Assembly (NCBI GenBank): GCA_017404205.1
Contig: JAFRCV010000008.1
Span: forward strand, 1 to 64,000
DNA length: 64,000 bases
Direction: 5' to 3'
Source: Erysipelotrichaceae bacterium
GTDB taxonomy: Bacteria; Bacillota_I; Bacilli_A; Erysipelotrichales; Erysipelotrichaceae
Positions 33,601 to 59,167 of this stretch are shown piece after piece (position 1 is the first letter of the stretch; each line of letters opens with the position of its first letter). Under the pieces are notes generated by a model that saw nothing but the letters and a program-made list of their open reading frames with translations, was not told the DNA's origin and searched no databases. Position numbers and translations under genes: made by a program.

Positions 33601-36398
33601 CTTATAACGATGTTGAATATTCATCTTTCTTTGGTGATGCTGGAAATAGCTATTCTTTAGGTGCTGACTTTAGTCATGATGATGGCAGCAATGAAAGATA
33701 TGTAACTATTGCTGGTGATGGCACAAATCAAACATATGTAAAGAGTGGACTTTCTAATAAATTTGTCTTTGAAACAGAAATAGAAGCTACATCACTAAAT
33801 AATGGGGAACTATATCCTAAATTTGGTATTTGTTTAGATGAATTTAATTCTAGAATGAAATTCTATGTTGATATGAAAACTGACATGACAGGTAATACTG
33901 TCGCATTATGGAAAGACAACACATATAATGTCAGCGCTAAAAATGTCACAATGAATTTTGTGGATGGAAATAAAGTTAAATTAAAAATTATTAGAGATGT
34001 TAATGATTATTATTGTTATGTAAATGATCAATTAGTTATTTATGAATATGATAATCTAGTTTCAGAAAATAGTAGCGTAGGTATCTTTACATATAACACA
34101 GGTTTAACATTAACTAATTATTCATATCTTGAAAATGGTGCTGCTAATAACGCAATAAATCAAGCTAAAGAAGATGTATATAATATTGAAGCTAATTATG
34201 AAGAGATAAATGCTGAAAATATTATCTCTAATGCATACAAAGCTTACAATTATTTCTTGAATAATAGTGATAATGGCAATGCTTATCAAGAAGTATACAG
34301 AACAAGTACAGCTTCTAATATCTATGCAGGTGAATGGATTGATGCAACTTTCCAAATGGGTGCACTAGACTTATATGATTATGATAAAGAAAAATACAAC
34401 GATATATATACATATGTTAAAGGCCTAGCAGATGCTCGTAATGGTTTATTAAATGGTGGAACCAATACAGGCTATCTTGATGCTCTTGCATATGCACAGG
34501 TATTTGCGAAATTAAATAGCTATGATTCTTATGATTTAGAAAATGTAAAAGCTCAATTAAACTTTGCAATGAACAAGATTGATAATCAATATTATGATTA
34601 TTCATGGATTGATGAAGATTATATGGTTGGTTGGGTTAATACTTACTTATCATTTATTCTAAATGATTCTTCATATACTGATGCCGATTATAGATCTTAT
34701 ATGAAATATCGTGCTGAATATTTTGATGAAAGCACAGGCTTATGGTTTAGAGATGCTAATTATATTTATGGTTTAGGCGAAAAGGGTACAACAAATGATG
34801 GCAAGAAGGTTCTTTGGTCAAGAGGTAATGCTTGGGTATATGTTTCTCTTGCTAGACATTTAAGCTTCATGGAAGAAAATGGACTAACCGATAGTGCAAT
34901 CTATAGCCAATACAAGAACGACTTTATTACAATGTCAAATTCTCTTGTAAATATTCAAAGAAAAGATGGCTTCTGGAATGTTAATTTATCTGATTCTAAA
35001 TTAAATACAGGTAAAGAAACAACTGGTACTTCAGGATTCTTATATGGCTTATCTAAAGGTATTAAACTTGGCTATTTAGATAATGAAAAATATATGAATG
35101 CAGCAATTAATGCTTATCTTGGCTTAAGTAATAAAGCATTAACAAGTCAAGGCAAATTAGTATATTGCCAACCAATAGGCTGGGATCCATTTACATATAG
35201 CTCTGCTGTTTGTCAAAATAACACAACAGCCTTTGGCGTAGGCTTATATATTTCAGGATGTAAAGCATTTGCTGAGGTTTATGAAGAACCATATTCATTA
35301 CAAGGAAACGGTAGTGAAGCTAATCCATATCTAATAACAAGTTTAGATGACTATAACTATATTGCAGAAAAAATTACTGCTGGTGAAAATTATCAAGATA
35401 AATATATTAAATTAACTTCTGATTTAGGAAACATTGATAATCCTATAACTAAATCATTAGGTGATTATGATAATTTCTTTGCGGGTAATTTCGATGGTGA
35501 TAATCACACACTTTACATAAATTTAACTAACGATAGGGGCTTATTTAACAAAATAGACAATGGCAGTGTAATAAGAAACGTCGTTGTTGATGGAAGTGTT
35601 AATTTCTCTGGAAACGAGAATTATGTTGGCGGCATTGCAGCTGTAGCATATTCTGGAAGCGTTATAGATAATTGTGAAAATAAAGCATCTATTAATGGCA
35701 ATGTTGCTGGTGGAATAGTTGGCTTTTCATATGGAGCAACTATAACAAATTGTACAAATTATGGAGACGTAACAGGCAATGTCGCATACAGTACTGCAGT
35801 TAATTCTGGTAATGGTGCAGGTGGCATTGTTGGTACACTTGGAAATACTAATCCTTCTATAGTCTCAAATTGTATAAATCTAGGAAATGTTACTTCAAAC
35901 AATCAAGCAGGTGGCATTGTTGGCAAAGCTAGAACTAATGCTGAAACAAGAATTACTAATTGTATAAACAATGGAACAATCACTGTTAGTGATGACAGTG
36001 GAAATCACGGCATCGTTGGTGGCATTGTTGGTATGGCTGGATGCAAGGTTGATAATTGTATAAATAATGGCGAAATAAATGGAACCTCACAAGTTGGCGG
36101 TATTGCTGGAGCTTTAATTAGTGAAGGCAAGACCGATGCTTGTCACAACTATGGCCAAGTAAATGCTTCAAAGAATTATGTTGGTGGTATTGTTGGTTGG
36201 GCATATCAAGCAGTAACAGCAAATAGTATTACAAATTCTGTTCAACATGGAAATAGTGTTACTAAAACAAATACCACTTATCCTACTGGACTTGTAAGAA
36301 AACCTAACTATATTGGTTGGATAACTGGCCAAGAGTCTACAAGTGGAGCAACAGCAGTCAGTGGTGAAAATGCTTGTGCTCATGAAAGTGGGGAATAG
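24639..36398 (+). CDS. Giant signal-anchored multi-enzyme polysaccharide-degrading protein
   Basis: 3919 aa. Residues 11-31 form a single N-terminal TM segment after a basic start, best read as a signal anchor. In order: InlB-like domain (37-106); LamG-like modules 1-3 (about 113-690, PKFG at 179, 375, 572); a beta domain (701-880); an InlB repeat (885-948); a second beta-domain copy (about 1145-1325); an SGNH esterase with GDSN 1356-1359 and catalytic D1504-x-x-H1507; LamG 4 (PKFG 1598); five InlB repeats (about 1732-2070); LamG 5 (2141); a CBM9-like domain (about 2265-2420); a type I dehydroquinase-like barrel (about 2428-2710, H2606, K2633); LamG 6 (3060); a GH105/GH88-like domain (about 3175-3550, WIDED from 3323, WSRGN from 3393); and a GLUG block (3555-3919). 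Esterase and unsaturated-uronyl hydrolase point to acetylated pectin. No LPXTG or dockerin is seen. Confidence 0.88.
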   Translation: MENENNSKKKRGLIILIVMLLLLASAFAVTKLLSKKQFEITVLESAHGKVEVDKLKAYEGDTVTIKAIPDEGYEVSSVLVNGKESEMIFTMPYENVTILVKFSLKDSTPEEIIGDTFGGVEGYMSSEGVDLSHDNGNNPYVTIIGGGEQFAYLNDVFDTKFYFETSINVKEIYNNDKYPKFGIIIDDELGSTLFYVDMNTKMTSNKVGVVHQQEGKDYDWKNAFEKEVSGMKFSDSDSVKLGIARNNNNYYFYVNDKLVLMDKDLNTKNAACGVFTFNTALKLDRYSKAVGDDANSKINKAVNDGLYLRGDFFGWYKNYRSSKEVKMIYDHGQNRKLVVDGNSPQYAYVNDIFTDKFSFTTTIDVNDILANDKAPKFGLMINNDKQMVKFYVDMNDKKEASQIGVVWQKNGANDDWAHALTERIANHNFTNKKQIELKVVRDKDQFYFFVDGVLFIADKGLTNNNAAVGVFSFNTNMTLSNYSIKVGDNANEDIANAKDQTKRLKGDFFGKANIYKTTISGVDLYNDHGTNPYTTFFGTAPQYAYVNDLYTNKFVFESDIEVKKVLNNDAAPKFGIMINGNSEMLKFFVDLKTDLTANEVGVVRQKTNQDDEWNSVLTNIVKLSFNENDTIKLKIIRNNLDYYFFVNDRLVIFEKNAITNEKSVVGLFSFNTEFKALNYSIKKGNEANNEINAAKTIANNIGDFTIGTNNFVDNGDGSYTFESNDQSLHKVDDIRYQYKTLNDKYKLVHLKLELVAADDWGQARVLVSKDPQNEMFVALEKKNNGKYQVFTMSKNNQNDFDNWELIIPELDENYIDLDIVTIGNEIFFLNDNQIIYKKTNLDANNAIIKVTGYNNARVIVSDISGKIFNDELEAREYINDLSVIVNYYDGNILIDNETLNINEKITKTDPSKEGYKFVSWYKDESLTVAFDKNEAVISELNLYAKWNKLEIVDGNEIEIEINNLLDNEIKLDIDKDTILYETVDKALLQLIQGHLVDNIDINAETANQIKEALDNEQALFVQIAVDAHKAELNDDENNIILLYDENSIVIASYEINIYMTIKADNNTLVDKAKINELDGEISINLNYPQAYDRNILTALDIHNNQVKELSIISKNTDNHSILVKSKEFSKYVITTGVSNFSLTTNYFEKTGSTYALTTNSKEETTLDEIKYFDEVVRGKYYRINGSISLDTEENWNQARIIISKDTNNEYVIALEKVADNAYQIFTMSKDNETLWNDWRLISHYEVNGNRHSIDFEVVVIEDKVYFLIDNEIAYVTKNRVDLSESTPKIGSYGTCTTTLTNLDGQIFNNKDEAESYINSINVKPYESRFENRINSLYQEYIVDHNCANNGGTLLFGDSNIDFWDNWQVQAGLTDYINGYNVGIGGSTTTDWLYAYEKLIKPFNADRIVFMLGFNDVFVWGEDGDDTVNRLYELMNKIHTDNPDAKIYCIYQTPCPAGHNGIEYTNQKYEQLVTLTEEMCDSLDYVTGISVFDLLKGKTNLFRLDNVHLNDEGYLVFSDYLYDLIFKGETFGVSKANNNSYRYKTTNGVEISNDNGSNPNIEFFGGSPQYAFVNDTYTDKLYFEAQFNVSEVLNNDAWPKFGLLLDGQSEMLKLFVDMTPSLTANNVGLVHQLTGKGDDWANAINKAVNNMKFTGDDNIKLSIIKNGKDVYAYVNDELVIFEENCSLNNLETVGAFSFNTRVTLSNYLLFKDDAALTYIQKAIDDHELLMNRNVTFKDGENVLNSLSIKVGNKINYQPEKDGYTFVGWYKDSQFTDAWDINNDVVTDNITLYAKFVIKNYIVNYYYDNQLIDSESVEHGSSITKLSYVKEGYSFDAWYKEATFVNKWSNDDPIDKNLDLYAKMNINSYSVTYMDGNDLLKEESLDYGSKISYLPNKDGAVFSTWYKDKDLTQIWSLDDDKVVGNITLYAKFVINQYQVKYYYDGNLIDNETVDYDSLITKSSYSKEGYSFVSWYKEASLINKWDNTEDRITADTSLYAKMDINKYTVSYYNGTTLLFSEEVEYDNLISHEDPSSLGYNFVSWYKDSALTIPFDKTNETIKNDTNLYAKFTNEGKFFGNVGENIASGANFIHDDNSDNAYVEMIGNNNEAYYPVAYVKDTLANKYIFEIEIEALDIYNNDNYPKFGVYFGGLKNSNYRFYVDVNKEIRSNIVGLYKESTDDYNFAKANVLMSFKDGDTVKLKAIRNINDLYIYVNDSLVIYQNDLLGNEDNYLGVYSFNMGLKLSNYSFKSSGIDEDISKAINDAETLESLRTISQVVSGKTISYDVEHLSDRIIVNARANDLSNFNLDLYFTANGREELQENNGYMAVIYRDGNINKTSYSENNKNFTNASNIDISVERSQNVISVSIPYSSLGISEKEAFDKFAFMPAIYNNSDATYHLFTESNPWVSKAYSETWYQCNLNGALAIDPIFEQRANGSLTDWTKPDFMQATVFYEAAIKEQTWQQCVVAIVCNEKHGANMFDLHIQELNEEDRSEENLRKIIHSTYKPVLAIFYNSNDLQYQGEILKTACKAGASAIDLPGYYYSAEARTQGYDDSDRQQWIDEGYSMSFASAAPSESTILHENVKKQNDYIAEIHALGSKVLLSEHVYTVFDKQQAIDYVTFMLKTKDIDVCKLVGRGSSKEDAYNCVEATKYLTTLVDNNEFPGKRFSYHLTPLAGGESGWLTRIINPAFFKSYVAFCYGDLGRGNLDYNQIDIDMGIETHGYAQTFLQAYLQNTSHSLTDLSIEDCISILDSYGENHHQYLRYRNYYLNSNSLSGRAYAKTGQHNDYWRLNGSSFVFNAKSPSTTNGYPVRGFAYDFDNRVKLGEDITIFADITSDLGTSAYTSSTRNTRTGLYLGNNESLLAYVYNTNTRKLELVYNNREFVVGDADALSTISGIDINNETYNADIINGDTISMSLSLQGRTLTLGFKDSTSEALTQVACIELSDELYALIGESDGFIKGGVIAETYVRSGAISEDKNIYFSNVSYNDVEYSSFFGDAGNSYSLGADFSHDDGSNERYVTIAGDGTNQTYVKSGLSNKFVFETEIEATSLNNGELYPKFGICLDEFNSRMKFYVDMKTDMTGNTVALWKDNTYNVSAKNVTMNFVDGNKVKLKIIRDVNDYYCYVNDQLVIYEYDNLVSENSSVGIFTYNTGLTLTNYSYLENGAANNAINQAKEDVYNIEANYEEINAENIISNAYKAYNYFLNNSDNGNAYQEVYRTSTASNIYAGEWIDATFQMGALDLYDYDKEKYNDIYTYVKGLADARNGLLNGGTNTGYLDALAYAQVFAKLNSYDSYDLENVKAQLNFAMNKIDNQYYDYSWIDEDYMVGWVNTYLSFILNDSSYTDADYRSYMKYRAEYFDESTGLWFRDANYIYGLGEKGTTNDGKKVLWSRGNAWVYVSLARHLSFMEENGLTDSAIYSQYKNDFITMSNSLVNIQRKDGFWNVNLSDSKLNTGKETTGTSGFLYGLSKGIKLGYLDNEKYMNAAINAYLGLSNKALTSQGKLVYCQPIGWDPFTYSSAVCQNNTTAFGVGLYISGCKAFAEVYEEPYSLQGNGSEANPYLITSLDDYNYIAEKITAGENYQDKYIKLTSDLGNIDNPITKSLGDYDNFFAGNFDGDNHTLYINLTNDRGLFNKIDNGSVIRNVVVDGSVNFSGNENYVGGIAAVAYSGSVIDNCENKASINGNVAGGIVGFSYGATITNCTNYGDVTGNVAYSTAVNSGNGAGGIVGTLGNTNPSIVSNCINLGNVTSNNQAGGIVGKARTNAETRITNCINNGTITVSDDSGNHGIVGGIVGMAGCKVDNCINNGEINGTSQVGGIAGALISEGKTDACHNYGQVNASKNYVGGIVGWAYQAVTANSITNSVQHGNSVTKTNTTYPTGLVRKPNYIGWITGQESTSGATAVSGENACAHESGE
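24976..26700 (+). repeat. Three tandem LamG-like modules
   Basis: Three protein modules spaced 588 and 591 bases apart (196 and 197 codons), each with the order DHGxNPYxT, YAYVNDxxTxKF, NDxxPKFG, KFYVD or KFFVD, and VGVFSFNT. Three diverged copies recur singly in the same gene (PKFG codons at 29430, 31059, 33816) and one in the lipoprotein gene upstream (23691). Each is probably a carbohydrate-binding sandwich. Confidence 0.8.
29830..30850 (+). repeat. Five tandem InlB-like (Listeria-Bacteroides) repeats
   Basis: Five units of about 65 codons with the family signature GYxFxxWYKDxxxxxxW followed by TLYAKF or LYAKM. A single further copy lies at about 27290-27480 (WYK at 920). Such repeats are rigid surface spacers. 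Confidence 0.85.
35300..36395 (+). repeat. GLUG repeat block ending the giant protein
   Basis: About 365 codons of GLUG-type repeats (VGGIVG, NCxNxGxVT pattern, predicted right-handed beta-helix), opened by GNGSEANPYLITSLDDYNYI and closed by WITGQ..SGENACA. It is highly similar to the three blocks at 39990-43100, both in protein and over shorter DNA stretches such as around 35907 and 40602. Confidence 0.8.
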
Positions 36399-48952: not shown

Positions 48953-50230
48953 ATGGCGTTTTTAATTGGTCCAATGCAACACCATATTGAGGGTCATAAA
49001 GAAATCACTGAAGCTAATGAGATTATCAAGATTGGCACTGATGAAGTAGCTATTTCACTTTCTATAGGTGCCCATATAGCTACGCCAACTGTACAAGTTG
49101 GTGACAGAGTTAAAATTGGTGATCTTATAGGAAAAAGAGATGATCGTTTCTATGTTCCTATATTTTCAAGTGTTTCTGGCGAAGTTGTTGCAATTGAGAA
49201 AAGAATGTCAGCTAGTCTAAAACCAAGTGATCATGTGATCATTAAGAAAGATGATACTGATGAGTTTAAAGATTTTGAAAAATTAAGTCTTGATGCAAGC
49301 AAAGAGGAGATTATTGCTTACATGAAGACAATTGGCTTATTAGGGCAAGGTGGTGCTGGTTTTCCATCTTATATTAAATATGCAACTGATAAATGCGAAA
49401 CATTAATCATCAACGCAGTTGAATGTGAACCTTATATTACAGCTGATGTAAGAAATATTGAAGAACACCTTGATGAATTTAAATATGGTGTTATGTTAAT
49501 GTTAAAAGCATCTAATGCTTCAAAATGTTTTGTGGCAATGAAGTCTTTCCATAAAGAAACTATTGAAAAACTAATTAAACTTTTTGAAGATGAAGAAAAG
49601 ATAGTTGTAAAGCCTGTAAAAGATGTTTACCCAATGGGATGGGAAAGAACATTGACTTATGAAGTATTAAAGAAAAGATATGATAAGCTTCCAATAGAAG
49701 CTGGAGCAATCGTTTCTAATGCTACTTCAGCGATTACGCTAGGTTCAACAGCTTTAAGTGGAAGATATTGCTATGAAAGAATCGTAACTGTTTCTGGTGA
49801 CAACATTAATAATCCTCATAATGTGATTTGTCGTATAGGAACACCAATTTCTAAGCTTATAGAAGCTTGTGGTGGCGTTAAAGAAGATAGGGCAATTATT
49901 ATTATGGGTGGTCCAATGATGGGAACATGTGTGACAAAAGATATTGTTACAATTACGCCAATTAGTAATGCTGTAAATATCTTTAAAGAACAGCATTTTA
50001 AAGAATATGCATGTTTAAGATGTGGAAGATGTGTTGAACATTGTCCAAGTTCTTTAATGCCTGTCAGCATTATTGAGGCATACAAATTTAATGATATTGC
50101 TGAACTAGAAAAACTACATGTTAGCGATTGTGTTGAATGTGGTATGTGTACATTTATCTGTCCTTCAAAAATAGAAGTAACAGAATCTATAAGAAGAGCT
50201 AAAAAGTTATTAGCTGCTAGAAAGAGATAG
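48953..50230 (+). CDS. rnfC: Rnf complex subunit C (RnfC)
   Basis: 425-aa peripheral subunit carrying the NADH/FMN site and two [4Fe-4S] clusters. The N-terminal biotinyl-like hammerhead leads to GLLGQGGAGFPSYIKYA (FMN/NADH region), VNAVECEPYITADVR, and two ferredoxin motifs near the end: CLRCGRCVEHCPSSLMP and CVECGMCTFICPSKI. Length is at the short end of the family but complete. AAGGAGG precedes the ATG. First gene of rnfCDGEA-x-B. The complex couples ferredoxin oxidation to NAD reduction and ion pumping. Confidence 0.96.
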   Translation: MAFLIGPMQHHIEGHKEITEANEIIKIGTDEVAISLSIGAHIATPTVQVGDRVKIGDLIGKRDDRFYVPIFSSVSGEVVAIEKRMSASLKPSDHVIIKKDDTDEFKDFEKLSLDASKEEIIAYMKTIGLLGQGGAGFPSYIKYATDKCETLIINAVECEPYITADVRNIEEHLDEFKYGVMLMLKASNASKCFVAMKSFHKETIEKLIKLFEDEEKIVVKPVKDVYPMGWERTLTYEVLKKRYDKLPIEAGAIVSNATSAITLGSTALSGRYCYERIVTVSGDNINNPHNVICRIGTPISKLIEACGGVKEDRAIIIMGGPMMGTCVTKDIVTITPISNAVNIFKEQHFKEYACLRCGRCVEHCPSSLMPVSIIEAYKFNDIAELEKLHVSDCVECGMCTFICPSKIEVTESIRRAKKLLAARKR

Positions 50231-50239
50231 GAGGTAAGA

Positions 50240-51682
50240 ATGGAATTCATTTATAAAACAACGCCAATGCCAAGAAGACCTCTAACTACTTCTAAGATTA
50301 TGCTTAGACTTTTAGCCGGTTTACTTGTTGTTTATGCTTATGCTTTATATCAAGCGTACACTTTTGGAAGTGAATATTTAATTAATGGTATTTTATTACT
50401 AGTTGTTGCAGAAGTTGTTTCATATGCATGTGAAGCAGTTTATGCATTAATGACTAAGCAAAACATTCTTGAGATATTTAAAACATCTTTTCCATATATT
50501 ACACCACTAATTCTAGTTTTAACTGTTCCTGTAAATACTTCACTATATGTAATAGGTGTAGGAACATTTTTAGCTGTTGTATTTGGAAAATTAGTATTTG
50601 GTGGCTTTGGTCAAAATATTTTTAATCCTGCTGCTGTTGGTAGAGCAATTATTGCTACATCATTTGCTGGCGTAGTTGCACTTGATGCTATTACATCACC
50701 AACTCTTACAACAACACTTGCTAATGCTGGTTGGGTAAGTGATTCAGCATCTTTTTACTACATGTTAAAAGATTTTGGTGGTTTAGGAAGCGTATTAACT
50801 GGCGATTATTTTGCTGCCATGGGTGAAACCAACACATTATTAATTCTTGTTGTTGGCGTATTACTATCAATATTTGATGTTATTGACTTTAGGATTCCTC
50901 TAACTTATTTAGGCGTAATGTTTTTAGGCGCTACTGTAATTGCTTTAGTTTCAGGACTTGGTATTGATTATCCTATTACATTTATATCAACAGGCGGTGC
51001 AGCATTTGGTGCTGTATTCATGTTGACAGATCCAGTTACTAATCCTCAAACTAGACCTGGTAAGATTGTATTCTCAGCATTAGCTGCTTTATTTACTATC
51101 GCTATAAGATTTTTGGGAAATTTACCAGAAGGCGTTATTTTTTCAATCTTATTAGTAAATATGATTTCACCTGTAATTAATCGTATTTTTGCTAATAAAC
51201 AAGTTGATTCAATTAAAAGAAATATTATTATTACTTTTGCGACAATTATTGTTTCAATTTTAATTCTAGTTATTATTGGTACTTCTGTTGAAAAAGGAAC
51301 ATATAAAGAGAATACATTTAAGAAATTTGATCCTAATGCAGAAACGGGCTTAGCTGCTGATGATTATTCTAGCTGCAAGGCTAAAGTTACCGATTTAGGT
51401 GATGGTAAATATCATGTTACAGTCCGTGGCTTCCACGCTATAGAAGATGGTGGACCTGACAACGAATTTGATATCGTCGTTAAAGATGGCAAAGTAGTAA
51501 GTGTCGAATGTACTGTTTTCTCTGATACAAAAGGTATTGGTGATGCAGCAATTAGTGAAGATGCATTATCAGAACTTGTAGGTGTAGATTTAAGCAGTGA
51601 AGTTGATACAATGTCTGGATGTACGTATACATCAAGATCTGTTGTTGCAGCTATTCAAGCTGCTTTAAAGGAGGCTAGATAA
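50240..51682 (+). CDS. rnfD: Rnf subunit D fused to an FMN-binding domain
   Basis: 480 aa. Residues about 1-350 are RnfD: about ten TM segments and the conserved FGGFGQNIFNPAAVGRAII. The segment LDAITSPTLTT stands where RnfD/NqrB proteins carry their covalent-flavin motif (D-x-x-S-G-A-T), with the acceptor Thr kept but GA replaced. The last 120 residues form an extra FMN_bind (RnfG-like) domain with DTMSGCTYTS at 456-465, where the usual Ala is Cys461. A separate rnfG follows, so this is an additional flavin domain, not a relocated subunit. It starts nine bases after rnfC. Confidence 0.92.
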   Translation: MEFIYKTTPMPRRPLTTSKIMLRLLAGLLVVYAYALYQAYTFGSEYLINGILLLVVAEVVSYACEAVYALMTKQNILEIFKTSFPYITPLILVLTVPVNTSLYVIGVGTFLAVVFGKLVFGGFGQNIFNPAAVGRAIIATSFAGVVALDAITSPTLTTTLANAGWVSDSASFYYMLKDFGGLGSVLTGDYFAAMGETNTLLILVVGVLLSIFDVIDFRIPLTYLGVMFLGATVIALVSGLGIDYPITFISTGGAAFGAVFMLTDPVTNPQTRPGKIVFSALAALFTIAIRFLGNLPEGVIFSILLVNMISPVINRIFANKQVDSIKRNIIITFATIIVSILILVIIGTSVEKGTYKENTFKKFDPNAETGLAADDYSSCKAKVTDLGDGKYHVTVRGFHAIEDGGPDNEFDIVVKDGKVVSVECTVFSDTKGIGDAAISEDALSELVGVDLSSEVDTMSGCTYTSRSVVAAIQAALKEAR

Positions 51683-51684
51683 TA

Positions 51685-52194
51685 ATGAATAAAACTATTA
51701 AATTAGCATTATTTCTTGGTATAGTTGCAGCTATATCTGGTCTAGTTCTTGGAATTGTAAACTATATAACTGAACCAGTTATTAATCAAAACGCTGTTAA
51801 AGCTGAACAAAAAAATCTTGAATTAATGTATCCAAATGCTGAATTCAAAATTCTTGATTATAAAGATGATGATGGAATTATCATTGGTGCATATAAAGCT
51901 AATGATACCAATTATATCTTTAAGGGCACAGCCGTTGGTTATAATAGTTCAACACCAATCGTTGTTTTAGTTGGTCTTAATAAAGATGGAACAATAGAAA
52001 ATATGGTTGCCTTAGAACAACAAGAAACAAATGGTTTTGGTGCTCGTTGTTTTGAAAAAGAAAATATTGCAAATCTATATTTAAATAAAAAGAGTGTAGA
52101 TGAAATTGATATGTTATCAGGCGCTACATTTACTTCAACTGCTTTAAAAACTATAATGGGCGAAGTATTTGAAGCTTATGAGGCAGTAAAGTAG
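51685..52194 (+). CDS. rnfG: Rnf subunit G (RnfG), flavinylated
   Basis: 169 aa with one N-terminal TM segment (8-28) and an extracytoplasmic FMN-binding domain. The flavinylation motif DMLSGATFTS is at 142-151, with T148 the expected acceptor for ApbE. It is shorter than the common 190-210 aa. Starts two bases after rnfD. Confidence 0.93.
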   Translation: MNKTIKLALFLGIVAAISGLVLGIVNYITEPVINQNAVKAEQKNLELMYPNAEFKILDYKDDDGIIIGAYKANDTNYIFKGTAVGYNSSTPIVVLVGLNKDGTIENMVALEQQETNGFGARCFEKENIANLYLNKKSVDEIDMLSGATFTSTALKTIMGEVFEAYEAVK

Positions 52195-52204
52195 GAGGGA
52201 CCAT

Positions 52205-52837
52205 ATGAAGAATTTTAAAAACGGTTTTATTAAAGAAAACCCTGTATTCTGCCTATATTTAGGTATGTGTTCTACGTTAGCTTTATCTACTAACTTAAAT
52301 AATGCCTTAGGTATGGGTTTGTGTGTAACAATTGTTCTAATTTTCTCAAATTTAATTATTTCTTTAATCAGAAATATTACACCAGATGAAATTAGAATAC
52401 CTGTATATATTGTTGTTATTGCAACACTAGTTTCGGTAGTTGAATTATTAGTTCACGCTTATATTCCGGCTTTATTTGATGCTTTAGGCGCATTCTTATC
52501 ATTGATTGTTGTCAATTGCATTATTCTTGGTAGAGCTGAAGCCTTTGCTAAAAAGAATCCACCACTTGCTAGTATAATTGATGGACTAGGAATGGGACTT
52601 GGATATACATTTGCGATTGTTATCCTATCTGTTATTAGAGAATTCTTATCTACAGCTTGGGTATCATTCTATAATCCATTTGATATGTCACAATTGATTA
52701 TTAGAATTGGCATGCCACAACTTGAAAATTATACAATTTCTTTATTCTCATCAAGTGTTGGTGCTTTCTTAACATTTGCTGTTGTAGCTGCACTATTTGC
52801 ATTAATTAATCAAAAAGCTAAGGAGGGCAAAAAATAA
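52205..52837 (+). CDS. rnfE: Rnf subunit E (RnfE)
   Basis: 210-aa membrane subunit, six TM segments, homologous to RnfA and NqrD. ENPVFCLYLGMCSTLALSTN carries the conserved Cys that, together with that of RnfA, should hold the intramembrane iron centre; VNCIILGRAEAFAKKN is the second hallmark with its Cys. AGGAGG precedes the ATG. Confidence 0.95.
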   Translation: MKNFKNGFIKENPVFCLYLGMCSTLALSTNLNNALGMGLCVTIVLIFSNLIISLIRNITPDEIRIPVYIVVIATLVSVVELLVHAYIPALFDALGAFLSLIVVNCIILGRAEAFAKKNPPLASIIDGLGMGLGYTFAIVILSVIREFLSTAWVSFYNPFDMSQLIIRIGMPQLENYTISLFSSSVGAFLTFAVVAALFALINQKAKEGKK

Positions 52838-53409
52838 TGAAACTCTTAACATTAGCTCTTTCAGCAGTTCTTATCAATAATATTGTTTTAGCGAAATTCT
52901 TAGGAGTTTGTCCTTTTTTGGGCGTTTCTAAAAATACTAAATCAGCATTAGGAATGGGACTTGCTGTTGTCTTTGTAATATTCTCTTCATCAATGCTTAC
53001 TTATGCTTTACAATATTTGGTATTAATTCCACTACATATTGAATATATGCAATTAATCTCATTTATTTTAATTATTGCTGCCTTTGTCCAATTTGTAGAA
53101 ATGTTTATGAAGAAGAAAATGCCAGGTCTTTATAAATCATTAGGCGTTTATCTACCTTTGATTACTACAAACTGTACTGTATTATATGTTGCCCAAGAAA
53201 ATATTTCTAAAGGTTATAATTTTCTTGAAACTGTGGTCAATTCAATAGCAACACCTTTAGGCTTCTTACTTGTTATCTATTTATTCTCATGCATTAGAGA
53301 AAGATTAGATTATGCTCATACTCCAAAAGCATTTAAGGGTAATCCAATTGGCTTAGTTGTTGCTGGCCTTATGGCTTTAGCTTTTGCTGGACTTGTAGGA
53401 ATTGTCTAA
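52837..53409 (+). CDS. rnfA: Rnf subunit A (RnfA)
   Basis: 190-aa membrane subunit, six TM segments, homologous to NqrE. NNIVLAKFLGVCPFLGVSKN and TTNCTVLYVAQEN hold the two conserved cysteines for the Fe centre shared with RnfE. Its start overlaps the last base of rnfE's stop, and its own stop overlaps the ATG of the 56-aa gene (TAATGA). Confidence 0.95.
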   Translation: MKLLTLALSAVLINNIVLAKFLGVCPFLGVSKNTKSALGMGLAVVFVIFSSSMLTYALQYLVLIPLHIEYMQLISFILIIAAFVQFVEMFMKKKMPGLYKSLGVYLPLITTNCTVLYVAQENISKGYNFLETVVNSIATPLGFLLVIYLFSCIRERLDYAHTPKAFKGNPIGLVVAGLMALAFAGLVGIV

Positions 53410-53579
53410 TGATTTACGCTATTTGTTTATTTGTTATTCTTGGGGCAGTAGTTGCTGTTGGTTATTATTTAAATTCCAAAACAGCTAAGCCTGAAGGGTG
53501 TGAAGATATGAGTGAAAAATGTTCAGGATGTAAAATAACTAGTTGTATTCATCATCCTACTATTAAACAGGAGGTATAA
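53409..53579 (+). CDS. 56-aa NqrM-like cysteine membrane protein inside the rnf operon
   Basis: Start overlaps the rnfA stop (TAATGA) and the end carries the AGGAGG site for rnfB, so the gene is tightly embedded. Residues 3-21 form one TM segment. The soluble tail has Cys 31, 38, 41 and 46, spacing CX6CX2CX4C, with KPEGCEDMSEKCSGCKITSC. One N-terminal TM segment plus four Cys is the layout of NqrM (DUF539), which helps install the Fe centre held by NqrD/NqrE, the homologs of RnfE/RnfA. The CX2CX4C part also equals the spacing of RnfB's cluster motif. A maturation factor for the RnfA/E centre is inference; a small electron carrier is the alternative. Confidence 0.75.
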   Translation: MIYAICLFVILGAVVAVGYYLNSKTAKPEGCEDMSEKCSGCKITSCIHHPTIKQEV

Positions 53580-53580
53580 A

Positions 53581-53895
53581 ATGTTGTCATTTCTAATTGC
53601 CTTTGTCGTAATGCTCGTGATTGGTGCATTATTGGGTGTTTTGTTATCAATAGCTAAAGAAAAATTTCATGTTGAAGAAGAAGACAAGCGCCTTCAAGAA
53701 TTGATCGAAATGTTGCCAGGATATAATTGTGGTTCTTGTGGATATTCTGGATGTGGAGGCATGGCCGAAGCTATCGTATCAGGGGAGCTAGATATCATAC
53801 CTTGCAATCCTTTAAAACAAAAAGATCGTGAAAAGATTATTGAATATCTAAAGACAACACCTGGACCTGATGGTTCTACAATTGATATTAAATAA
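53581..53895 (+). CDS. rnfB: Short RnfB lacking the ferredoxin domain
   Basis: 104 aa where RnfB proteins usually have 190-330. Present: N-terminal TM segment (1-23), acidic linker, and the first cluster motif GYNCGSCGYSGC with the fourth Cys in DIIPCNPL (CX2CX4CX16C type). Missing: the two-cluster [4Fe-4S] ferredoxin domain that normally follows. The frame ends cleanly in TAA inside a strong terminator, and no ferredoxin-like coding follows in any frame, so it is not a local frameshift. Last gene of the rnf operon. Confidence 0.88.
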   Translation: MLSFLIAFVVMLVIGALLGVLLSIAKEKFHVEEEDKRLQELIEMLPGYNCGSCGYSGCGGMAEAIVSGELDIIPCNPLKQKDREKIIEYLKTTPGPDGSTIDIK

Positions 53896-53928
53896 AACAA
53901 AATGGGGTTTATCCCATTTTGTTTTATT
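53891..53928. terminator. Bidirectional terminator holding both stop codons
   Basis: A 16-bp perfect stem, AATAAAACAAAATGGG paired with CCCATTTTGTTTTATT, loop GTTTAT. The TAA of rnfB lies in the left arm and the TAA of the convergent rhodanese-like gene in the right arm. A- and T-runs on both sides serve both strands. Confidence 0.9.
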
Positions 53929-54595
53929 CTATAGGCGTTTCAAATGAATCATCATAAGGAGTTAATTCACCCCAGTTGTATTCTATTTTCATTTTATATG
54001 CATCAATACCATCAATTTTGTATCTTGGATTTTCTAAATCAAAATAAGCGATATTTTTAGCTAAAGAGTTTTCCATAGCACCTGCATTATATAAATTATT
54101 GCCATCATAACCATATTGTAATAATAAGTTTATTAAATAACTTGATTCAACTCCAGCAGTTGCAATTATTACTAGTTGTTTATCTTTTGGAAATACATGA
54201 TTTAAATATTCTTCAGATTCTTCATAATTTGGAATAAAGGATCCAACATCACCAACATTGGCAATTAGTTCGCCATTGTCGTTTCTTATTTTTTCCATCT
54301 TGAACAAAACATTGTCCTTTTTTTCAAAACTAGCAATTGTCTCATAAAATGGTATATTTATAAATCCGGCAATATGACCATTGATTAAAAATTGTTCACT
54401 TGACCTAGTATCTATATATAAAACATTATCAAGAAATAAATAATCATCAATATTATATGCGCCAATAGGAGATTCAGACATCAATGAAGAATCAGGATTT
54501 TCTTTAGCCGGTAAACTTTTTATTATTTCTTCTTTTGGAGAATTAGCGCATGAACATAAAATACAAAGCAACAATAGCGGAATTATTCTTTTCAT
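53924..54595 (-). CDS. Rhodanese-fold lipoprotein without catalytic Cys
   Basis: 223 aa with a lipoprotein signal (MKRIIPLLLLCILCSC). The rhodanese fold is visible: VLYIDTRSSEQFLINGHIAG (D-R block), IPFYETI, and the active-site loop position VIIATAGVESS. Aligned with the paralog at 56666, the loop CxxGxR is here A145-T-A-G148-V-E150, so the sulfur-carrying Cys and the Arg are both gone. It should bind rather than transfer sulfur. The ATG overlaps the ApbE stop by 4 bases (ATGA), so the two are made together. Confidence 0.82.
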   Translation of the reverse strand: MKRIIPLLLLCILCSCANSPKEEIIKSLPAKENPDSSLMSESPIGAYNIDDYLFLDNVLYIDTRSSEQFLINGHIAGFINIPFYETIASFEKKDNVLFKMEKIRNDNGELIANVGDVGSFIPNYEESEEYLNHVFPKDKQLVIIATAGVESSYLINLLLQYGYDGNNLYNAGAMENSLAKNIAYFDLENPRYKIDGIDAYKMKIEYNWGELTPYDDSFETPIE

Positions 54596-55743
54596 TCGAT
54601 TATAATCTCCTTTATTTTATTTGAAGAATAAGAATCAATTAAAATTTCTTTAAAGCCTTCACTCATTATTAGAGTATAATCATCTTTTTCTAGACAATAA
54701 TCTATTTTCATATCGTAATATAAAGAAACATCATCAATGATTGATTGAATTGTTTGAAGATCATCAATAGAGAATAAAGCGGTTGTTAGCGCATCAATAG
54801 CACTATCTTTTTTATCACTTTTTATTTCTACTACTCGATGATAGTTTTCACTATAGCCTGTAAATGGATTTATAATATGATGTCTTCTAATATTGTTTTC
54901 ATTGAAATAATATTGTTCATAGTCACCACTTGTTGAAATAAAACCATTATTTAATTGATAAGCATATAGAATGCTACTTTTATCATTTGGATCTTTTGAA
55001 CCAACTGACCATTTCACGTCTTCATTTTCATCAATATATGCACAAATTGAAGATGATCCCGCATTAATCATAAAAGAGGTATGATATTTAATTAATTCTT
55101 CATATATCTTATCAATAACATAGCCTTTAGAAAATGCGCCTAAATTTATTTCATATTCTAAATTGTTATAAGGAATTAAAGTGATTGAGGTATTTTTTTC
55201 ATTTAATACAATGTATTTATCTATTTCTTCATAAGGTACAACAGCTTCAAGCATTAATTTGATTTCTTCCTTACTAGGGTCAGTATTATTAGTATCATAT
55301 GGTAAAAATTTATCGTTATACAATGCAAATAGTTTACCTATTGTTGGGTTAAAATAGCCTTTAGTTAATTTAGACAATTCGATAGCTTCTTTTAAAGCAT
55401 CAAATAATTTTTCATCAATTACTATTTCTTCATTAAAATGTTGATTGATAACTTTTAAATTAGTGATTGTTTTATTGTCTTCATCTATATAGTAACGATA
55501 GCTATCTAATAATTTATGATATTCAAATAACAATTCTTGACATTTATTTAGTAAGACATCTTTTTTACTTTCTTTACAGTATGTTAAATAAACTTCCGTA
55601 TTTAAAGGCAAAACCATTTGACCTTCACTATCATTTAAAGTTCCTAAGAAGACACTTTCTTTTTTAATGGCTTCATTTTCTTCTTTTGTAGCACTACATG
55701 CCACAAGTAATAAGCTTAAAATAACTAATATAATTCTTTTCAT
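54592..55743 (-). CDS. apbE: FAD:protein FMN transferase ApbE, lipoprotein
   Basis: 383 aa with lipobox LVAC (Cys near 16). ApbE hallmarks: INLGAFSKGYVIDKI, the FAD-binding SFMINAGSSS, HHIINPFTGYSENYHR, and the Mg site DSAIDALTTALF. It attaches FMN from FAD to Thr/Ser in D-x-x-S-G-A-T type motifs outside the membrane. Likely targets in this window are RnfG, RnfD, and the lipoproteins at 55840 and 57550. It is divergent from the 55840 gene. Confidence 0.93.
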   Translation of the reverse strand: MKRIILVILSLLLVACSATKEENEAIKKESVFLGTLNDSEGQMVLPLNTEVYLTYCKESKKDVLLNKCQELLFEYHKLLDSYRYYIDEDNKTITNLKVINQHFNEEIVIDEKLFDALKEAIELSKLTKGYFNPTIGKLFALYNDKFLPYDTNNTDPSKEEIKLMLEAVVPYEEIDKYIVLNEKNTSITLIPYNNLEYEINLGAFSKGYVIDKIYEELIKYHTSFMINAGSSSICAYIDENEDVKWSVGSKDPNDKSSILYAYQLNNGFISTSGDYEQYYFNENNIRRHHIINPFTGYSENYHRVVEIKSDKKDSAIDALTTALFSIDDLQTIQSIIDDVSLYYDMKIDYCLEKDDYTLIMSEGFKEILIDSYSSNKIKEIIIE

Positions 55744-55839: not shown

Positions 55840-56649
55840 ATGAAAACGATTATTAAGATTGCGCTTCTATTGGTCACAATTCTTTCAGTATGTGGCTGTA
55901 CAATACAAATTGGCAACATTTCAGAAAACGGTAGTGACGAAGCTTGTGCAATGATGGATTTAGATTCAGTTAATGAAGTTCTAAATTCAGGTGATTTAGC
56001 TACATCAGGTAGAGGAAATGCAGTAGCTGTAATTCCAATTACGCATATTAATGGTCCAAAAGATATTGATACCTTCTATGCGTTTATTGATTTTAAATAT
56101 GCATCGAAGAGATATATTAAATATCAAATAACTTATCTATCTTGTACATGTCGTTCAGCAAATGTTAACTATTGGCAAACCGCCTATGTAGAATTAACTA
56201 TTCCTGAAAGCGGTAATCCACTTGATAGTACAATTAGAACTTTATCATTTGATTATGATTCAAGTGCTAAAGGTGACGATTATTTGGCTGGTTTCTGGGG
56301 CGATACTGGTACTACGCATCCAATGCCAGGTACAAATGTAATGTATGACTATAATGAAAATGCTATTAAGGATGGTGAGCCATTCCCAGTTAGTAAGCAA
56401 ATATCAATCAAAGAGGAATACATTCCATTCTTTATTGGCAAAGACGGGAACTATATTAAATCTATAGCTGGTTGTTCAAGTACTGTTGGACCAGTTGATA
56501 ATATAAATCCTGAAGATTTCTCTAGTGGAGAAGGCAGAGAAAATTATTCTCTTGATCATTTCACTGGTGCTTCAGTTTCAACAAACAACATTATTTTAAT
56601 GCTAGATGCATTATATGATTACCATGCTACAGATAGTCATTTTAACTAA
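55840..56649 (+). CDS. Lipoprotein with FMN-attachment-like motif
   Basis: 269 aa, signal peptide with a Cys-rich end (SVCGCTIQIG; lipid Cys near 20). The middle is a soluble beta-rich domain with several Cys (ITYLSCTCRSANVNYWQ) that I do not recognise. Near the C-terminus DHFTGASVST at 239-248 matches the ApbE target pattern D-x-x-(S/T)-G-A-(S/T), with S245 as acceptor, followed by a helix NNIILMLDALYDYH as in FMN_bind domains. It neighbours ApbE and leads into the rhodanese lipoprotein gene, 16 bases away. Flavinylation is inference. The ATG at 55840 is preceded by AAGAGGTAATG. Confidence 0.78.
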   Translation: MKTIIKIALLLVTILSVCGCTIQIGNISENGSDEACAMMDLDSVNEVLNSGDLATSGRGNAVAVIPITHINGPKDIDTFYAFIDFKYASKRYIKYQITYLSCTCRSANVNYWQTAYVELTIPESGNPLDSTIRTLSFDYDSSAKGDDYLAGFWGDTGTTHPMPGTNVMYDYNENAIKDGEPFPVSKQISIKEEYIPFFIGKDGNYIKSIAGCSSTVGPVDNINPEDFSSGEGRENYSLDHFTGASVSTNNIILMLDALYDYHATDSHFN

Positions 56650-56665
56650 AAAGAAGGAGAAAAAA

Positions 56666-57316
56666 ATGAAAAAACTTTTAGTTGCTTTATTAGCACTTTT
56701 ACTTCTTGCTGGTTGTGCTTCATGTCCTGAATGTGAAGCTTGCGAAGTTGTAGAACCTGCTAAGACTGTTGCTGATTTACCAGCACCAAGAGATACATCT
56801 AAGTCTTATTCAGACAAAGATGGTAACTCAATTGCTTGTGCACTTGATGATTATTCATTAGACTGCTCAACAATCAATTCAAGTAATTTAACTGATTACT
56901 TAGGTATCGAAGGCGTTGTTTATATTGATGCTAGAGACTTTGGCGATTTCGCTAAAAAACACTTAAGAAATTTTGAATGCATTCCTTACTTTGCAGTAGT
57001 ATTTGATGCAGAAGCTAACGGTGCAGACAAACCACAATTATTCCATGGATCAGTAACTGAACCAGTTGCTACTTATGAAGAATCATTAGACATTCTTCAT
57101 GATTTAATTCCTGAAGATAAAGTTGTATTCTTAATGTGCCAATCTGGTGGTCGTATTAAAGCATTCATGACATTATTAGATTCTTTAGGCTATGATATGT
57201 CTAAGATTTATAATGTTGGTGGTATGGCTCAATATGGCGAATATGAAGGCATCTATGTTGCAGAAGATTTAGTTGTAACTGCTACTTATGCTTTCAATGG
57301 TTTAACTGTTAAATAA
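56666..57316 (+). CDS. Rhodanese-fold lipoprotein with intact active-site Cys
   Basis: 216 aa. Start at 56666 behind AAGGAG; an upstream in-frame ATG inside the previous gene is rejected because the chosen start opens a proper signal MKKLLVALLALLLLAGC with lipobox. After the lipid Cys come CASCPECEACE, three more Cys in CX2CX2C spacing. The rhodanese domain has VVYIDARDFGDFAKKHLRNF and the loop C158-Q-S-G161-G-R163 (CxxGxR), so sulfur or thiol chemistry outside the membrane is possible. Paralog of the Cys-less protein at 53924. Confidence 0.85.
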   Translation: MKKLLVALLALLLLAGCASCPECEACEVVEPAKTVADLPAPRDTSKSYSDKDGNSIACALDDYSLDCSTINSSNLTDYLGIEGVVYIDARDFGDFAKKHLRNFECIPYFAVVFDAEANGADKPQLFHGSVTEPVATYEESLDILHDLIPEDKVVFLMCQSGGRIKAFMTLLDSLGYDMSKIYNVGGMAQYGEYEGIYVAEDLVVTATYAFNGLTVK

Positions 57317-57549: not shown

Positions 57550-58248
57550 ATGAAAAAACTATTAGTCGTTTTATTTTCTTTATTAATTGCTTTAGCTTTA
57601 GTTGGTTGTACAAAAGCTCCAGAAGCAAATAATGAAGAAGAAGTTGCTGAGGAAGCAACAGGCAAATACACAGTTTACAATATGACTGGTCATGATGTAA
57701 CTGAATTGTATTTATATGAAGCAGGTTCTGCTGATAAAGGTGAAAACTATGCTGCTGAAAAAGCAATTGCACCCGAAAAAGTTGTTAAATTAGAATATAC
57801 AGCTGCTAGTGATGCAGTTCTTGTATTAGAATTCACAACAGAAGAAGGAACAAGATCATTTGATACATTGCATATTGAAGAAGCTCCAATTTCTTTATTA
57901 TCAGTTGATGCTGCTGCTGGTGCAACAAATATTTCTTTCACAGCTGGTACAGGCGTTGGTGTTTATAATGTAACTAATGCTACTGGCGGCACTGTTAGCG
58001 CTATCTATATGTATCCAGAAGGTTCTGAAGACAAGGGTACTAACTATGCTGGTGAAGCTGGTTTAGCTGATGGCGAATCAGTTACTATTGAAATCGAAGG
58101 TGTTCTTGGTCAAAACCACATATTTGAATTCGTAGATGCTACTGGTGAAGCTAGAACTTTCGATACATTACATATCGAAGTTGCATCATTTGATTTATTA
58201 TCAGTTGATGCTGCTGCTGGTGCAACAAACATTAAATTCGGTTATTAA
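57550..58248 (+). CDS. Lipoprotein with two 100-residue repeats, each with a DxxxGAT motif
   Basis: 232 aa, lipobox LVGC (Cys 20). Two repeats of exactly 100 residues follow, each beginning YTVYNMTG or VGVYNVTN, with YLYEAGSADKGENYA or YMYPEGSEDKGTNYA, then FDTLHIE. Each ends with LLSVDAAAGATN, so D120/T126 and D220/T226 repeat at 300 bases; the underlying DNA is identical over about 30 bases. DAAAGAT matches the ApbE target pattern D-x-x-x-G-A-T. The repeat itself resembles small beta domains of the form YNxTGxxIxxLY found in Gram-positive lipoproteins. It may be a two-flavin electron carrier (inference). GGAG precedes the ATG, and terminators lie on both sides. Confidence 0.82.
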   Translation: MKKLLVVLFSLLIALALVGCTKAPEANNEEEVAEEATGKYTVYNMTGHDVTELYLYEAGSADKGENYAAEKAIAPEKVVKLEYTAASDAVLVLEFTTEEGTRSFDTLHIEEAPISLLSVDAAAGATNISFTAGTGVGVYNVTNATGGTVSAIYMYPEGSEDKGTNYAGEAGLADGESVTIEIEGVLGQNHIFEFVDATGEARTFDTLHIEVASFDLLSVDAAAGATNIKFGY

Positions 58249-58273: not shown

Positions 58274-58300
58274 AAAAGGCTTGAAAATTCAAGCCTTTTT
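58274..58300 (+). terminator. Terminator after the tandem-repeat lipoprotein gene
   Basis: AAAAGGCTTGAA, two-base loop, TTCAAGCCTTTT, then T. A near-perfect palindrome with a T-run. Confidence 0.85.
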
Positions 58301-58319: not shown

Positions 58320-58326
58320 TATTTTG

Positions 58327-58662
58327 ATGAAAAGAATTGAAAAAATTATTATTTTATTAATTTTATTATTTTCCGTTGTTTTTATTGTTTTAAATAAAAT
58401 AAATATAACTGATAAAGTAATTGTTAGTGTAAAAGATGCAAATAATAATACGTTGATGTCTTTTGATATTAACGAAGATAATTATTATAGTTTTGATGTT
58501 AAATATGGAAAGTTTAATTTAGAAGTAAAGGATGGCAAATGTCGAGCAATAGATGTTGATTGTCCAAATCAAATCTGTGTACATACAGGATATATTTCTG
58601 CTGAAAATCCTGTACCGATAATTTGTCTGCCAAATGGAATAATGGTGACGATAAATGAATAA
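58327..58662 (+). CDS. NusG domain II-containing extracytoplasmic protein
   Basis: 111 aa with one N-terminal TM segment (4-22) and a NusG-II/KOW-like beta domain: VKYGKFNLEVKDGKCRAIDV, then DCPNQICVHTGYISAENPVP and ICLPNGIMVTI. The pattern DCPNxxCVxxGxI..ICLPN with two or three Cys is characteristic of this membrane-tethered family, which sits beside ApbE and Gx-transporter genes in flavin-based electron-transfer loci. The final bases overlap the next gene by 8. The ATG lacks a ribosome site (see the promoter at 58311). Confidence 0.88.
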   Translation: MKRIEKIIILLILLFSVVFIVLNKINITDKVIVSVKDANNNTLMSFDINEDNYYSFDVKYGKFNLEVKDGKCRAIDVDCPNQICVHTGYISAENPVPIICLPNGIMVTINE

Positions 58663-59167
58663 AACAAGAAAATATATATTGGTGACAATGCTTGCAGCTT
58701 TGGCTGTAGTTTTAAATGTTGTTGAAAATTTAATGATTCCACCACTTGCTTTTGGAATTAGGTTTGGAATTGCCAACATTATTTCATTATTAGCTATAAA
58801 ACTTTTTGGCAAAAAGGAATTATTGTTTATTGTAGTTTTAAGAATAGTTATAGCTAATTTAATAAAGGGAACTATATTTGGCACATCATTTTGGATATCA
58901 ACAAGCGGTGTTATTATATCAACAATCATAATTATCATTTTAGATAGTATAAAGGCTTCCTTGTTATTTACTTCAATGCTGTCTGCACTTGGACATTCTT
59001 TTGGACAATTAATGGCAGTCGTAATTTTATATAATCAAATTAATATATTTTCTTTGTTTCCGATGTTAATAATAGTTTCTATTGCGACAGGTGTTTTAAC
59101 CGGTCTATTAAGCAATTATGCAATCAAAAGAATAAAAACAAATCAAATCACTAATATAGGTACTTAA
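58655..59167 (+). CDS. Gx transporter family / heptaprenyl diphosphate synthase component I-like membrane protein
   Basis: 170 aa, about five TM segments. It starts with YILVTMLAALAVVLNVVENL and has PPLAFGIRFGIANIISLLAI, the hallmark of the ECF-like Gx transporter family (also named HepS component I). It is translationally coupled to the NusG-II gene. Such pairs occur with ApbE and flavinylated proteins, as in Listeria-type extracellular electron transfer loci, where a role in flavin or quinone handling is suspected. Confidence 0.87.
   Translation: MNKTRKYILVTMLAALAVVLNVVENLMIPPLAFGIRFGIANIISLLAIKLFGKKELLFIVVLRIVIANLIKGTIFGTSFWISTSGVIISTIIIIILDSIKASLLFTSMLSALGHSFGQLMAVVILYNQINIFSLFPMLIIVSIATGVLTGLLSNYAIKRIKTNQITNIGT

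Follow-up and report, generated by a model that had tools for sequence, protein, structure and literature searches.

The Listeria EET locus holds ndh2 and demethylmenaquinone genes, and its lipoprotein PplA has two domains. As described in the available text of one study, ApbE/FmnB flavinylates PplA, the FAD leaving the cell through EetB, an FAD-binding ECF-S subunit needed for this flavinylation, and deletion of eetA in Listeria gave no phenotype; eetB genes are often found near apbE and rnf (PMC9973259). Another study, in its available part, portrays multi-FMN-bind proteins as carriers joined in strings and also presents Flavodoxin_4 and FMN_red as ApbE substrates found by co-localisation together with the tag, the FMN_red tags being located on a C-terminal extension (PMC11334425). 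Two further domains outside FMN_bind, DUF2271 and DUF3570, are modified by ApbE at [S/T]GA[S/T], according to the accessible sections of a mining study (PMC8238504). The consensus for ApbE is D-x-x-[S/T]-G-A-[S/T], as given in the available part of a review (PMC12052999). The substrates named in the accessible main text of the flavinylation papers are FMN-bind, NqrB/RnfD, DUF2271, DUF3570, Flavodoxin_4 and FMN_red; the domain described here is absent from them.

A locus with features of a Gram-positive EET locus is present in the window, by which we mean the whole 64,000-nucleotide stretch of DNA that was analysed: genes for NusG_II, PF07456 and PF02424 proteins surround a gene whose lipoprotein product is a predicted flavin carrier (the focus gene; Table 1). 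The focus gene lies near ApbE and Rnf, as the original prediction had stated, with the rnf cluster, apbE, two rhodanese lipoproteins and a lipoprotein bearing the tag DHFTGASVST to its left and the EetA-like and EetB-like genes to its right. The focus protein resembles PplA, an ApbE/FmnB-flavinylated lipoprotein, in having eetA-eetB nearby and two flavin sites, its own flavinylation being predicted. It differs from PplA in having all-beta repeats instead of an FMN_bind domain, and the locus differs in having rnf beside the focus gene where Listeria has ndh2 and the demethylmenaquinone genes. The focus gene is present as a single copy in the 1.62-Mb draft genome, which belongs to an uncultured gut bacterium, and the apbE gene of the window is the only ApbE match in that genome. 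Given the terminator-like hairpin downstream, the focus gene probably ends its own transcript; an operon with eetAB was considered and is unlikely, because the hairpin lies between them.

Table 1. Features of the focus gene and its locus in the window.
Feature	Position	Strand	Basis
Focus gene, two-repeat lipoprotein, 232 aa, candidate double-flavinylated carrier	57550-58248	+	ORF, ATG start
Signal peptide, lipobox LVGC, lipid-anchor Cys20 (codon 57607-57609)	57550-57609	+	read from translation
Beta-domain repeat 1, aa 38-130	57661-57939	+	profile match E 8.3e-36; AlphaFold mean pLDDT 95.3
Tag DAAAGAT, aa 120-126, predicted FMN acceptor Thr126	57907-57927	+	sequence
Beta-domain repeat 2, aa 137-230	57958-58239	+	profile match E 2.8e-34; full-length model
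Tag DAAAGAT, aa 220-226, predicted FMN acceptor Thr226, near C-terminus	58207-58227	+	sequence
ApbE, FAD:protein FMN transferase, lipoprotein form, proposed modifying enzyme	54592-55743	-	PF02424 E 1.3e-40
EetA-like NusG_II protein	58324-58662	+	PF07009 E 1.5e-19
EetB-like protein, same family as the ECF-S subunit for FAD export in Listeria	58655-59167	+	PF07456 E 9.8e-29
rnf cluster, gene order RnfC, D, G, E, A, B, proposed membrane electron donor	48953-53895	+	RnfG: FMN_bind and rnfG family; RnfD: PF03116 and FMN_bind; others named from translations and gene order
Second candidate substrate, lipoprotein with FMN_bind-like C-terminal tag DHFTGASVST	55840-56649	+	no Pfam family over cut-off
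Terminator-like hairpin 3' of focus gene	58274-58299	+	
Two rhodanese-domain lipoproteins flanking apbE	53924-54595 and 56651-57316		Pfam

Several other features of the window were also recorded. RnfD (50240-51682) has a C-terminal FMN_bind domain (PF04205, E 4.1e-10) with the tag VDTMSGCTYTS, and the usual RnfD loop tag, which is DVLTGAT in the RnfD of locus L061, is replaced by DAITSPT in the window; relative L104 is similar. A ferredoxin-like part is usual in RnfB; the RnfB of the window (53581-53895) has only 104 aa and apparently lacks this part, and its L104 relative (8551-8862) is equally short. The lipoprotein carrying DHFTGASVST was found in 2 of the 36 genomes of the genus, both of which also have the focus gene. 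Within a run of large genes, an open frame at 24639-36398 extends over 3,919 aa.

The focus protein contains two repeats of ~95 aa, both of which end in LLSVDAAAGATNI, and its lipobox-like LVGC with Cys20, in a signal peptide read by eye, marks it as extracytosolic. The two DAAAGAT tags first noticed in the protein were confirmed to be 100 residues apart, and the DNA encoding them, originally described as near-identical, consists of the same 21 bases. The longest identical run at a 300-nt offset within the gene is 36 nt and spans the tag DNA. DNA of the flanking repeat is far more diverged than this stretch; the tag match therefore does not reflect a recent duplication of the whole unit. Motifs of the form D..[STA]GA[TS] seldom arise by chance: of 200,000 residue-shuffled versions of the focus protein, 0.6% had one or more and 0.003% had two. 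Across the window proteins (42 predicted proteins entered, 20,083 aa), four such motifs were observed versus 0.14 expected, and the maximum in 2,000 shuffles was two. All four lie within the rnf/apbE locus, one in RnfG, one in the lipoprotein at 55840-56649 and two in the focus protein. Both tags of the focus protein agree with the ApbE consensus at every position except 4, which is Ala rather than Ser/Thr. The second tag, close to the C-terminus, resembles the terminal placement with which flavin-tag labelling works best, as stated in the available part of a review (PMC12052999).

The domain that carries the tags was compared with families of known substrates. The focus protein matched no Pfam family at E<=1, including the DUF2271, DUF3570, Flavodoxin_4, FMN_red and NqrB/RnfD profiles, so at the sequence level the original prediction was right that the host domain is not FMN_bind. 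NCBIfam held no fitting model, the only matches being to signal peptides and far below cut-off, and none of 14 members of the focus family matched Pfam at E<=0.01. Alignment of the family with FMN_bind using hhalign covered little beyond the tag (probability 6.5%). FMN_bind proteins, including FMN-bind2 and multi-flavinylated proteins, share with the focus protein an extracytosolic location, repeated domains and a tag of the D-x-x-[S/T]-G-A-[S/T] type. The focus protein, on the other hand, has no PF04205 match, and its domain is a ~95-aa beta-sandwich, compared with ~120/160-aa domains that have a helix after the third strand (PMC11334425, available text); its tag is followed by x-I-x-F, that of FMN_bind by x-[S/T]. 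DUF2271 and DUF3570 provide a precedent for ApbE-modified domains outside FMN_bind, but the focus family has no Pfam match to either. Flavodoxin_4 and FMN_red descend from flavin-binding folds, whereas the focus sandwich has no flavoprotein relative among the matches listed.

Structure prediction gave a confident all-beta sandwich of seven strands for repeat 1 (42 domain copies). In this model, a four-residue helix (82-85) overlaps the tag (83-89), which lies on a short turn and loop ahead of the final strand (91-93). In the full-length model (pLDDT 86.7), strands 211-217 and 228-230 bracket the second tag, which belongs to the C-terminal segment and falls within the last 13 residues of the protein. 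Burial of the tag in the domain core, which would have spoken against the original prediction, is not what the model suggests. The last element of the modelled domain is the strand that directly follows the tag; the FMN_bind fold, compared by its published description only, has a helix between strands and after the tag. Foldseek returned nothing at E<=0.001, and its best match was 2mca, a Eubacterium rectale protein that is uncharacterised. With VIA-align, the extracellular domain of PepT2 scored up to Z 9.3, but this is a generic sandwich and no function follows from the match. Neither an FMN_bind structure nor a flavoprotein was among the matches listed in the fold searches, and searches by sequence gave no convincing solved relative.

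To define the family, we used a profile search of the order, in which 51 of 315 genomes had a match and the loci of these 51 were retrieved, and a scan of one genome per species (84,980 species), seeded with two stretches outside the tag, which yielded 25 loci. The two sets share some contigs, and 78 loci entered the neighbourhood counts. In the first family search, signal-peptide matches to unrelated lipoproteins were dropped by eye and 16 of 21 genomes were kept. From both sets we cut 109 distinct domain copies, which are distinct sequences and not independent events. All but one (108/109) end in D-x-x-[T/A/S/G]-[G/S/A]-[A/S/P]-[T/S]; the sole copy without the tag, L108 (G022), is a weak profile match. 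Among the 108 tags, D is invariant, position 4 is T in 73, A in 19, S in 14 and G in 2, position 5 is G in 100, S in 6 and A in 2, position 6 is A in 89, S in 13 and P in 6, and the acceptor is T in 106 and S in 2. D and the T/S acceptor are also kept in 41/41 copies from loci found with seeds outside the tag. The strict published consensus is matched by 60 of the 108 tags, and the other 48 depart from it, with either A or G at position 4 or changes in the G-A core, including TGPT/TGPS (6) and TSAT (5). According to a mutational study summarized in the available part of the review, mutating the G or A of the tag lowers flavinylation to about half (PMC12052999). The search for DxxxGAT in other members of the beta-repeat family, proposed as a check of the original prediction, thus had a favourable outcome, with the tag, strict or relaxed, in nearly every copy. 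Judged by these sequences, the tag is a family-wide feature and not a quirk of one protein.

Genomes that carry the family also tend to encode ApbE. We counted 50 carriers in the order, with G022, the source of the tagless copy, placed among the 265 other genomes. ApbE is common in the order (236/315 genomes) and was found in 48/50 carriers versus 188/265 non-carriers (p 5.6e-5, without correction for shared ancestry). In the genus of the window, where ApbE is rare (7/36 genomes), it was found in 4/4 carriers versus 3/32 non-carriers (p 6e-4, likewise uncorrected for shared ancestry). No ApbE was detected in two carriers, G184 and G273; as either genome has 10 FMN_bind matches, the apbE gene may be absent from the assembly.

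Gene neighbourhoods were compared among relatives. A same-genus genome retains the arrangement rnf-apbE-focus-eetA-eetB; in it, apbE and the focus gene are divergent and separated by a 190-bp gap. On a Lachnospiraceae contig, the focus gene is directly upstream of apbE on the same strand, with a 181-bp gap (ApbE Pfam E 1.3e-65), and in two further close genomes it lies ~2.6 kb from apbE, with rnfC beyond. Overall, apbE is within 6 kb of the focus gene in 6 of 78 loci, of which two represent a single contig; most relatives of the focus gene are not beside apbE but elsewhere in the genome. A regulator named as AraC-like from its sequence adjoins the focus gene, mostly divergently, in 17 of the 78 loci (L064, L068, L070 and 14 others) and may control the carrier gene. 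Locus L028 (G186:C52), from the same genus, encodes a lipoprotein in which several CxxCH heme motifs and an apparent molybdopterin-type oxidoreductase domain were recognized by eye; it is a possible further envelope redox partner.

Family members vary in the number of domains and in what these are joined to. One-domain versions with DAAAGAT occur in Faecalibacterium prausnitzii ATCC 27768 and F. hattorii as well as in one complete Faecalibacterium genome, and a Lachnospiraceae MAG encodes four domains, all with DAAAGAT. Two proteins are fusions: a 545-aa protein in G284 has two beta-domains, with the tags DAMTGAT and DDMTGAT, and after them two domains of ~145 aa that end in DEVTGST, and a 450-aa protein in G256 has one beta-domain and two ~145-aa tag-bearing domains, the partner tags over both fusions being D[EA]VTGST. 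Of 315 genomes, 6 have the ~145-aa partner domain, which occurs there in pairs; most copies contain D.[VI][ST]G[AS]T. Neither Pfam nor hhalign confirmed homology of this domain to FMN_bind. Its size and pairing fit FMN-bind2, compared by published description only; FMN-bind2 was described, in the available text, from an Erysipelotrichaceae protein as a domain of ~160 aa present in even number (PMC11334425). Among 391 sampled Clostridia genomes the family was found in one, and this was the centre F. prausnitzii genome itself; the family is thus patchy there.

The tag could instead be explained as a merely structural D-x-x-T-G-A-T turn in an ordinary surface or ligand-binding lipoprotein, its likeness to ApbE substrates being coincidental. 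Other positions of the domain are equally conserved (Leu70 and Glu73 in 91/91 copies), most loci have no adjacent apbE, and no link to flavoproteins came from Pfam, Foldseek or VIA-align, all of which would fit such a turn. However, the variable positions of the tag obey ApbE rules (an S/T acceptor, mostly S/T/A at position 4, and a G-A core), as a structural turn need not. Together with the co-occurrence of ApbE, the divergent and adjacent apbE genes and the tag-bearing fusions, this makes a purely structural role improbable. It is also conceivable, at rather low probability, that the protein is flavinylated but acts as an enzyme subunit or redox sensor, for example as a donor to the rhodanese-domain lipoproteins, rather than as a general electron carrier. 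Consistent with this, apbE is flanked by two rhodanese-domain lipoproteins in the window, and a block of apbE, rhodanese and TGAS lipoprotein genes is kept in a second genome, G186 (L185). In that genome, however, the focus gene is on a different contig from the block, no rhodanese-protein match was found in the fetched loci of relatives elsewhere, and the focus protein has no attached enzymatic domain.

A further alternative is that only canonical [S/T]GAT members are flavinylated, while AGAT proteins, including that of the window, bear little flavin, if any, on a tag that has decayed. The consensus indeed has S/T at position 4 (PMC12052999, available part), and among 14 FMN_bind tags in loci of carrier genomes, collected with a pattern requiring D and G, position 4 is S in 13 (SGAT in 12, SGAS in 1) and A in one (DSVAGAT). 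On the other hand, three proteins from the same genus have AGAT in both of their repeats and L119 has it in all four, and D, G, A and T show no drift; such uniformity would not be expected of decay. Ala at position 4 is not confined to the focus family either, since a relative of the neighbouring lipoprotein has DDFAGASVST and the one exception above comes from a canonical FMN_bind protein. Furthermore, ApbE was present in 12/12 carriers tested from beyond the order, and AGAT tags are found in many of these. Together with the C-terminal FMN_bind tag of RnfD, which is SGCT in the window versus TSAT in L061, and the DAITSPT of the RnfD loop in the window, these examples indicate that relaxed tags occur here in known substrate families too, as putative modification sites. 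We consider loss of flavinylation in the AGAT proteins distinctly improbable.

We therefore favour the interpretation, which we regard as likely, that the focus protein is a substrate of ApbE built on a new scaffold; it would function as PplA or the FMN_bind strings do but fall outside FMN_bind. The protein is probably a previously unrecognised kind of electron carrier, as predicted here. The earlier suggestion of a new class of multi-flavin carrier outside FMN_bind is supported by conservation of the tag, genomic context, co-occurrence with ApbE and the fusions, the flavins themselves being predicted from sequence. The carrier would be membrane-anchored and extracytosolic, with two all-beta domains that each end in an ApbE flavinylation tag. 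By analogy with Listeria, EetB-type export would bring FAD outside, where ApbE, encoded 1.8 kb away, would transfer FMN to the two tag threonines. The lipid-anchored protein would then take electrons from a membrane complex, most simply Rnf with its own FMN sites, and hand them on, either to an acceptor outside the cell or to a further redox protein of the envelope. The relatives, which have one to four domains, would be versions of this carrier with a flavin on each domain.

More tentatively, and with considerable doubt, the family may form a new structural class of ApbE substrate, a beta-sandwich with a C-terminal flavin tag that is strung one to four times into an extracellular flavin wire unrelated to FMN_bind, with the one-domain version of F. 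prausnitzii as a surface partner for flavin-mediated extracellular shuttling. F. prausnitzii is described, in the available text of one study, as using flavins and thiols as electron shuttles to oxygen (PMC4010535); our literature search returned no paper joining 'flavinylation' with 'Faecalibacterium'. According to the accessible sections of the mining study, some genomes with apbE have no known substrate, and less prevalent substrates are still to be identified (PMC8238504). The focus family is a candidate for these missing substrates. If so, flavin tags would not be confined to domains that have a flavin pocket but could also be placed on a simple beta-sandwich, and repetition of the unit could lengthen the carrier. 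The proposal is directly testable, as cultured strains of Faecalibacterium have relatives, among them ATCC 27768 of F. prausnitzii, an abundant gut anaerobe.
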